A DNA stretch of 5,054 nucleotides from the NCBI GenBank assembly GCA_029256645.1, contig JAQSXM010000286.1, positions 1 through 5,054 on the forward strand, given 5' to 3'. This document shows, piece after piece, positions 2,311-3,338 of this stretch (position 1 is its first letter; every line of letters starts with the position of its first letter). The position numbers and the translations under genes were made by a program. The DNA comes from Sporomusa sp. Lineage in GTDB: Bacteria > Bacillota_C > Negativicutes > Sporomusales > Sporomusaceae. Below the pieces are notes generated by a model that worked only from the letters and a program-made list of their open reading frames with translations, ran no database searches and was not told where the DNA came from.

Positions 2311-2371
2311 CACCTCTCTTACGATAAGCCGCCGAGGTTAGTTATCGCGATGCAAATAACAAAAGACCTCG
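2311..2371 (-). promoter_or_regulatory. Riboswitch expression platform with Shine-Dalgarno sequestering hairpin
   Basis: On the RNA, ACCTC (2334-2338) can pair with GAGGT of the Shine-Dalgarno sequence (2312-2316). An inner CTTA/TAAG helix (2325-2328 with 2318-2321) supports this, hiding the ribosome site. Alternatively ACCTCG (2333-2338) can pair with CGAGGT (2366-2371), helped by GTTAT/ATAAC (2356-2360 with 2341-2345), which frees the site. The two folds exclude each other. Neither hairpin is followed by a U-tract, which points to control of translation rather than termination. The folds were drawn by eye and no energies were computed. Confidence 0.55.
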
Positions 2372-2380
2372 TAAACGTTA

Positions 2381-2501
2381 GCCTCCGGGGTTAGCTGTCG
2401 GGATAGGGAAAAGAGAGAATCAGAATACGCCCTTCCGTTCTTAACGGATTATCCCCTTTGTTTATATATTGGTTCCCCCGTACCTGATAAGGATTCGGCA
2501 T
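2381..2501 (-). ncRNA. c-di-AMP riboswitch aptamer (ydaO/yuaA class)
   Basis: Conserved blocks of the class appear in order on the minus strand: TGCCGAATCC (2491-2500), ACGGGGGAACC (2471-2481), AAGGGGATAATCCG (2445-2458), GGAAGGGCG (near 2428-2436), and CCGACAGCTAACC followed by CCGGAGGC (2381-2401). The class binds two molecules of c-di-AMP and usually lowers expression of cell-wall hydrolase, osmolyte and potassium-transport genes when the ligand is high. Its place 76 bases before a secreted 3D-domain gene fits that role. The closing helix looks short, GCC with GGC (2497-2499 with 2381-2383), and the predicted transcript starts only a few bases before it. Confidence 0.93.
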
Positions 2502-2618: not shown

Positions 2619-3338
2619 CTATATCCCTAGCGCTGTGCAAAGTTCTTTAGTGGCAATACCGTTAACATTTATTCCTTTATCTGCCTGATAGGACTTTACA
2701 GCTTCCTCGGTCATAACGCCAAATAAACCGTCGGCCCGTCCCTGAAAATAGCCCAACTCTTTTAATTTTAGTTGAAGGATAACTACATCAGATCCCGCAG
2801 TCTTGTATTTCAAGCTTCTGCTAATTGTTATCTTCCGATCCTCAATACGCACAGGAGTTCCAACAGGAATCCATTCAAAAAGCTCTTCAACATCTTTATT
2901 ACGCATCCTTATACAGCCATGGCTGGCGAATTGACCAATTGACCATGGTTTATTCGTTCCATGAATGCCATATGTACCCCAGGGCACATTTAACCCCATC
3001 CAGCGTGTTCCAAACCCGGTTCCCCAGTCATAGTCCTTCCATACAATATTCCACTCACCGATAGGTGTAGGTGTTTTGCTTTTCCCTACAGCGATCCGGT
3101 ACTTTTTATACAGCTGGTCCTCATTGTAAACCTCCAGCACCCTCGACTGAATTTTAACTATAATACTCACTTTACCTGATGGTATTTCAGTAGGCTGATT
3201 GCTCCCCAGGGAGGATAATTCTATCTCATCCATATATTCAAAACCTATTATGCTAAAAACAATACTCAAAATTGCTAAAATTGCTATACCATAAAAGAGT
3301 TGGGATCGTCTAAATTTAAAAGATATGATTGAATTCAT
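2619..3338 (-). CDS. L,D-transpeptidase (YkuD) with C-terminal peptidoglycan-binding domain
   Basis: This 239-residue envelope enzyme should form L,D (3-3) cross-links in peptidoglycan or attach proteins to it. Residues 14-33 are a single hydrophobic segment after a basic start (FKFRRSQ), so it is probably membrane-anchored with its domains outside. The YkuD catalytic domain spans about 57-170. It contains the motif GIHGT (His126) and, 13 residues on, SHGCIRMRNKD, with His140 and the nucleophile Cys142. All expected catalytic residues are present. A PG_binding_1 repeat follows at about 180-237 (GSDVVILQLKLKELGYF, GLFGVMTEEAVKSYQ). The ATG at 3338 has GGAGG seven bases upstream, within GGGAGGGGAGA. 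No convincing promoter or terminator was found for it. It is next to the riboswitch-controlled 3D-domain gene, which carries the same binding-domain type at its N-terminal side. Confidence 0.95.
   Translation of the reverse strand: MNSIISFKFRRSQLFYGIAILAILSIVFSIIGFEYMDEIELSSLGSNQPTEIPSGKVSIIVKIQSRVLEVYNEDQLYKKYRIAVGKSKTPTPIGEWNIVWKDYDWGTGFGTRWMGLNVPWGTYGIHGTNKPWSIGQFASHGCIRMRNKDVEELFEWIPVGTPVRIEDRKITISRSLKYKTAGSDVVILQLKLKELGYFQGRADGLFGVMTEEAVKSYQADKGINVNGIATKELCTALGI

Follow-up and report, generated by a model that had tools for sequence, protein, structure and literature searches.

The leader of a cell-wall gene from Sporomusa sp. probably works as a translational OFF switch of the docking type, in which the strand that docks onto a c-di-AMP aptamer has been shifted about 53 nt downstream by a spacer hairpin derived from a duplication; we put the probability of this reading at about 0.68. 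The ligand-bound aptamer would pair its pyrimidine loop (positions 2418-2411) with the Shine-Dalgarno (SD) strand (2320-2313) and hide the SD sequence, and c-di-AMP would consequently lower translation of the 3D-domain gene downstream. A sequence-only reading of the window, by which we mean the whole stretch of 5,054 nucleotides that was analyzed, had instead proposed an attenuator-like leader of four alternating segments, which taken alone would behave as an ON switch, with the sign treated as an open question.

Results

Architecture of the locus

All features described here lie on the minus strand of the window. The regulated gene (1655 to 2305, TTG start at 2305-2303) encodes a cell-wall protein of 216 amino acids with PG_binding_1 and 3D domains, whose best relative is from S. 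malonica (89% identity over residues 49 to 216); the closest relatives found all belong to Sporomusa species. A promoter-like site (2509 to 2537), consisting of TTGACC (2537-2532), 17 nt, and TATCAT (2514-2509) and recognized solely by its match to the consensus (10 of 12 positions), lies directly 5' of the aptamer, and promoter-like sites were seen by eye at the matching place in several orthologous leaders. The aptamer (2365 to 2510) aligns to the full model (positions 1 to 134) of the c-di-AMP (ydaO/yuaA) riboswitch family RF00379 with an E value of 2.4e-14 and a covariance-model score of 66.6 bits, passing the gathering score of 38. Its GGG..CCC hairpin, just upstream of CAGCUAA, carries in the loop the pyrimidine sequence UCUCUCUU (2411 to 2418), the putative docking (pseudoknot) strand. 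The 3' strand of the aptamer core contains the first copy of a repeat (CUAACCCCGGAGGCU, 2380 to 2394), which holds segment 1 (ACCCCG); this segment lies at 2391-2386 and had been misplaced at 2387-2392, while the positions given for the other three segments were correct. Segment 2 (CGAGGU, 2371-2366), probably a decayed first docking/SD strand, is the 5' arm of a spacer hairpin (2328 to 2376; -13.1 kcal/mol, z -2.06) built on its pairing with segment 3 (ACCUCG, 2338-2333), which belongs to the second repeat copy (CUAACCUCGGCGGCU, 2327 to 2341), a duplicated aptamer 3' strand, and is also complementary to the GAGGU of the SD sequence. The latter (AAGAGAGGU, 2312 to 2320), the predicted 3' strand of the docking helix, includes segment 4 (GAGGU, 2316-2312) and is found 60 nt 3' of the GGC that closes the aptamer.

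Upstream of the riboswitch gene, on the same strand, lies a gene for an L,D-transpeptidase with PG_binding_1 (2619 to 3338), for which no RF00379 match of its own was found in the window. As picked by script, rare start codons are kept in the 3D genes, with TTG in all eight duplicated and eight of ten compact leaders (both defined below) and GTG in the other two. The window, L048, and L059 share a concerted variant of the aptamer core, GGGGAUAAUCC with CCCUAUCCC, in place of GGGGUGAAUCC with CCCGAA- or CCCUAA-type strands; of 87 parsed places, 3 have the second strand of the variant (1 of the 87 was false, and for 53 the first strand went unread). In this variant the junction strands are AUA/UAU rather than UGA/GAA; they could pair, and the change may affect ligand binding.

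Orthologous leaders compared

A search of 28 genomes of the order, in which one best 3D-gene match was taken per genome, delivered 25 best orthologs from 25 genomes (L047 to L071), and the remaining three genomes, with weaker best matches only (L072, L073, and L074), were left out. An upstream aptamer was present in 21 of the 25; L067, L069, L070, and L071, which had none, were also set aside. Ten of the 21 leaders are compact, with ACCUCGGAGGC (ACCCC in L055) followed after 5 to 9 nt by AAGAGAGG; five (L047, L048, L051, L053, and L054) are duplicated like the window, and six have a spacer in which a copy could not be told from shuffles. L119 and L120 were added through a repeat-pattern search of 380 genomes; of the seven that matched, the other five had been included before. 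The resulting duplicated set (n = 8, window included) is therefore partly selected by the repeat pattern, with L120 counted by pattern and by its kinship with L119, and only five of the eight rows are distinct across the four segments. The hairpins of these eight leaders were cut by hand, and kinship among leaders was not removed from the pairing, shuffle, and permutation statistics given below.

The repeat as a tandem duplication

The repeat described in the sequence-only reading is real: CTAACCCCGGAGGCT (2394-2380) and CTAACCTCGGCGGCT (2341-2327) are identical at 13 of 15 positions. No other 15-base repeat in the leader (220 nt) is better, and 16 of 2,000 dinucleotide shuffles equaled it (a chance of about 0.8%). 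GAGGT follows each copy at nearly equal offsets of 24 and 25 nt. The proposal that the repeat is a duplicated part of the aptamer held up as well, as the insert (SD sequence excluded), aligned to the best-matching of the ten compact aptamer 3' strands, outscored all 300 shuffles in seven of eight duplicated leaders; for the L120 insert, 226 of 300 shuffles were as good in the same alignment. Aligned to a compact leader from a different species, copy 2 of the window reaches a score of 32, compared with 24 when aligned to its own copy 1. Since copy 2 matches the compact aptamer 3' strand better than copy 1 does, the repeat looks like a tandem duplication. Copy 1 (2380-2394), identical in all eight duplicated leaders, reads ACCCC at a site that is ACCUC in most compact leaders. 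We dropped the idea that every spaced leader is duplicated, as no copy stood out in the six spaced 3D-gene leaders, whose alignments were equaled by 28 to 241 of 300 shuffles.

Pairing among the four segments

Pairing of segments 2 and 3, one element of the four-segment proposal, is conserved in all eight duplicated leaders, where both segments sit in the lower stem of a hairpin of -10.0 to -23.4 kcal/mol (z -1.61 to -6.46). On the five distinct rows, with gap-free segments chosen by hand for this and the other segment helices, 93.3% of the cells of the 2:3 helix are paired (6 of 500 shuffles as high), three of six pairs have changed on both sides in a compensatory manner (50 of 500 shuffles as many), and no slid register exceeds 57% paired. 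The claim that segments 1 and 2 can pair is only partly right: they form five of six pairs in the window, with a C.A mismatch inside the helix, every duplicated leader has a mismatch, and the pairing is not conserved: 20 of 30 cells are paired (66.7%), one column never pairs, and double-sided changes are absent among the five distinct rows. The 1:2 helix is also weak, at -5.8 to +0.7 kcal/mol versus -8.7 to -16.3 kcal/mol for 2:3. Since the ON logic was to be driven by 1:2 pairing, it is left without a driver. Segment 3 is complementary to the SD sequence in 8/8 duplicated leaders (100% of cells), but the SD sequence is invariant, rendering covariation uninformative, and the 1:4 helix contains one C.A in every row. 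When pairings were forced in the region 3' of the aptamer, 2:3 was more stable than 3:4 in all eight duplicated leaders. We conclude that the 2:3 helix is real and that 1:2 is not supported; 3:4 pairing is possible but would be restrained by 2:3.

Plain secondary-structure prediction, to which a pseudoknot is invisible, indicated no excess stability of the leader (z +1.09 and +0.78). Folding with and without the aptamer strand, suggested in the sequence-only reading as a check, yielded values for SD accessibility, but no consistent sign across forms; in the region 3' of the aptamer folded alone, the SD sequence is unpaired with a probability of 0.19 in the window and 0.00 to 0.77 over the eight duplicated leaders.

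Complementarity between the aptamer loop and the SD sequence

The four-segment scheme did not include one potential partner of the SD strand, namely, the aptamer loop, which in the window is complementary to it in 8/8 pairs. In a hand-chosen loop register, complementarity amounts to at least 7/8 pairs in all 24 3D-gene leaders and to 8/8 pairs in 18 of them, with one compensatory pair (U-A to C-G) in the five AAGAGGGG leaders. Covariation here is weak, with one pair and 90 of 500 shuffles as good; it rests on a single pair because the SD sequence hardly varies among 3D-gene leaders. A register slid by two is paired in 100% of cells, since each strand consists of a simple repeat and any SD sequence can be matched by a pyrimidine tract. 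The energies discriminate between the two tails: in 8/8 duplicated leaders, the loop pairs with the SD strand at -9.5 to -11.7 kcal/mol versus -3.0 to -6.0 kcal/mol with the copy 1 tail (-9.5 versus -4.5 kcal/mol in the window), and the window loop would thus have its partner in the distant copy 2 tail and not in the adjacent copy 1 tail. Within 100 nt of tail, the best loop partner is the SD sequence in 14/14 spaced 3D-gene leaders, while L065 and L066 favor the adjacent tail when a 20-nt loop stretch including stem bases is used.

In whole-leader ensembles, in which no pseudoknot is allowed, the loop region is the main SD partner in seven of eight duplicated and nine of ten compact leaders; among the six nonduplicated spaced leaders, it is the main partner in none, and the aptamer 3' strand (a 1:4-like pairing) takes this place in three. 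The SD sequence of the window pairs with the loop region at 0.94 per base and with the stretch holding segments 2 and 3 at 0.00. Because these plain ensembles pair it with the loop without aptamer fold or ligand, the SD sequence could be hidden both with and without ligand.

A broader signal comes from compact c-di-AMP leaders upstream of many genes, 51 of them unique among 86 parsed. Own loop and tail pair at -8.95 kcal/mol versus -7.86 kcal/mol for swapped partners, a difference reached in 2 of 5,000 permutations, or 1 of 5,000 when the 3D genes are removed (n = 43). In 19 of the 51, own pairing is weaker than -8.5 kcal/mol, with four of these at -3.2 to -4.2 kcal/mol; the parser missed unusual hairpin strands, and the 13-base loop stretch includes stem bases if the loop is short.

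Distribution of duplicated and other spaced leaders

The protein tree scatters the duplicated rows over three positions (window/L047/L048, L051/L053/L054, and L119/L120) among compact leaders, with compact L050 and L055 beside L051/L053/L054; ten of 21 inner branches are open, and the one-change count made on this tree sets the duplicated rows against the six spaced rows only. Because the inserts of the window, L047, L051, L053, L054, and L120 share, by eye, a UUUGCA/UGCAU-like stretch, the duplication may have had one origin with subsequent losses. L055 is compact yet has ACCCC, which is otherwise found in the 3D-gene set only in the eight duplicated leaders and L059; it may be a former duplication that has collapsed between direct repeats.

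Hairpins of differing sequence occupy the place of the spacer in 11 further leaders. Among leaders of the c-di-AMP class, L087, L109, L115, L116, and L117 have a folded insert between aptamer and SD sequence, and their loop:SD energies range from -6.0 to -20.4 kcal/mol; the insert of L109 is 101 nt long, and a second stretch there is an almost equally good partner of the loop. Spacers between aptamer and SD sequence seem to recur in c-di-AMP leaders. Terminator-like hairpins were seen by eye past the c-di-AMP aptamer in L024, L025, L028, L093, L095, L105, L106, L110, and L111, several of which precede a gene whose start resembles what we take to be KimA. In these leaders the strand immediately preceding the hairpin is complementary to the aptamer loop, which suggests that the same docking strand drives transcription control.

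Discussion

The sign of control in the Sporomusa leader is most likely OFF and not ON. The complementarity of loop and SD strand in 24/24 leaders predicts an OFF response, while the 1:2 pairing on which the ON prediction was based did not pass the conservation test. OFF is also the better bet because of what is described for related RNAs. Section 5 of a 2024 review places ydaO among the docking riboswitches, whose ligand-bound aptamer occludes the ribosome binding site (RBS) in translational control (PMC10907184). The nlpC riboswitch is likely translational and is repressed by c-di-AMP, with a proposed pseudoknot involving the RBS (PMC9960051); a further c-di-AMP switch is a transcriptional OFF switch (PMC6488665). 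In the crystallized ydaO RNA, for which a stable pseudoknot is described, CUCCUUCG lies in the loop and CGAAGGAG in the tail (PMC5393176), and the window loop occupies the same position as this tail-complementary loop; that these two strands are the ones forming the pseudoknot is our own reading of the sequences.

We propose the following route to the present leader: (i) compact leaders, with the SD sequence 5 to 9 nt past the closing GGC of the aptamer, are taken as ancestral; (ii) a tandem duplication of about 53 nt would have copied the aptamer 3' strand together with the SD strand; (iii) copy 1 would have been kept in the aptamer, where, with ACCCC, the G.U pair to CGGGG on the 5' strand is gone; and (iv) the old SD strand of copy 1 would have lost its match to the loop and become segment 2, pairing with segment 3 from copy 2. 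The 2:3 hairpin formed in this way would serve as a spacer and, at the same time, would neutralize segment 3, a ready-made anti-SD strand, by holding it off the SD sequence. A variation on this mechanism, which we consider possible but clearly less probable than the docking switch described above, is a two-layer switch, where the aptamer loop (in a ligand-dependent manner) and segment 3 are rival partners of the SD sequence and segment 2 sets the availability of segment 3.

Several other mechanisms would account for parts of the data. In the original four-segment scheme, pairings 1:2 and 3:4 hide the SD sequence without ligand, and ligand takes segment 1, allowing 2:3 to form and the SD sequence to be freed. 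Segment 1 does lie inside the aptamer core, 2:3 covaries, 3:4 complementarity is retained in 8/8 leaders, and in the window and L048 the forced combination of 1:2 and 3:4 comes within 1 kcal/mol of forced 2:3 and 1:4. This scheme is nevertheless improbable, given the mismatched 1:2 helix, the preference of the region 3' of the aptamer for 2:3 over 3:4, and the cost of forcing 1:2 together with 3:4, which in all eight leaders amounts to 4.4 to 19.3 kcal/mol relative to the unconstrained fold. A strand exchange bridged by the nested hairpin, in which 1:4 pairing hides the SD sequence until ligand frees it, would likewise act as an ON switch and appears to us just as doubtful. It would be in line with CCUC/GAGG complementarity in nine of ten compact leaders (full ACCUC/GAGGU in eight of ten), with spaced leaders that have a hairpin between both strands, with the two strands differing together in AAUCCCC...GAGGGGU leaders, and with the aptamer 3' strand as main SD partner in half of the six nonduplicated spaced leaders; the C.A mismatch in all eight duplicated leaders, where copy 1 takes at most 0.06 of SD pairing, and the OFF behavior of the two c-di-AMP riboswitches described in PMC9960051 and PMC6488665 argue against it.

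Copy 2 might also take over from copy 1 in the aptamer, supplying its 3' strand and so bringing the SD sequence into a compact docked form. The window retains CUAACCUCGG-GGC in copy 2, and L047 and L119 nearly so, but by eye L048, L051, L053, L054, and L120 lack needed pairs there, and copy 1 does not vary in 8/8 leaders, which makes such an aptamer of two registers very unlikely. We give slightly less weight still to transcription attenuation, at the U-rich stretch past segment 2 or elsewhere in the leader. By eye, this stretch is present in seven of eight duplicated leaders (weak in L048), and other c-di-AMP leaders of the order have terminators past the aptamer; the stem in question is weak, however, and no terminator-like site was found within positions 2250 to 2620.

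Alternating complementary segments also occur in the attenuators of amino acid operons, which have four of them; the leader studied here shares this likeness but differs in that its 1:2 member is not conserved and its output is the SD sequence rather than a terminator. With the RF00379 riboswitches it has in common an aptamer above the family threshold, loop/3' tail complementarity, and a downstream cell-wall gene, and it departs from them in its duplicated 3' strand, in the core variant GAUAA/UAU, and in a docking strand located 60 nt, not 5 to 9 nt, past the closing GGC. An aptamer loop complementary to the RBS strand is also found in the interdomain docking riboswitches preQ1-III, cobalamin, and ydaO, whose ligand-bound state hides the RBS (PMC10907184), whereas in the window docking is predicted from complementarity and a hairpin of duplicated aptamer sequence separates aptamer and RBS. 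The nlpC riboswitch of Corynebacterium glutamicum similarly combines a cell-wall gene and translational control with a proposed CTCC:GGAG(RBS) pseudoknot upon ligand binding, a mechanism that is likewise a proposal; the available part of that report describes no duplication (PMC9960051). Among the literature matches listed, titles and abstract openings mentioned neither the duplication of an aptamer strand within c-di-AMP leaders nor Sporomusa c-di-AMP leaders, although the crystal or founding ydaO papers may mention them.

To conclude, this analysis corrects the expected sign of control, for which four-segment pairing alone would probably mislead. The leaders suggest a simple evolutionary path for remodeling an expression platform, in which the aptamer 3' strand is copied together with the SD sequence and the first SD copy decays into a partner of the second copy, and a platform rebuilt in this way would keep docking at a distance. 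Since differing hairpins occupy the same place in other leaders, the tolerance of c-di-AMP docking to distance is directly testable. If the two-layer reading is true, basal translation and the response to ligand would be set by separable helices, with a sharper or delayed OFF response.
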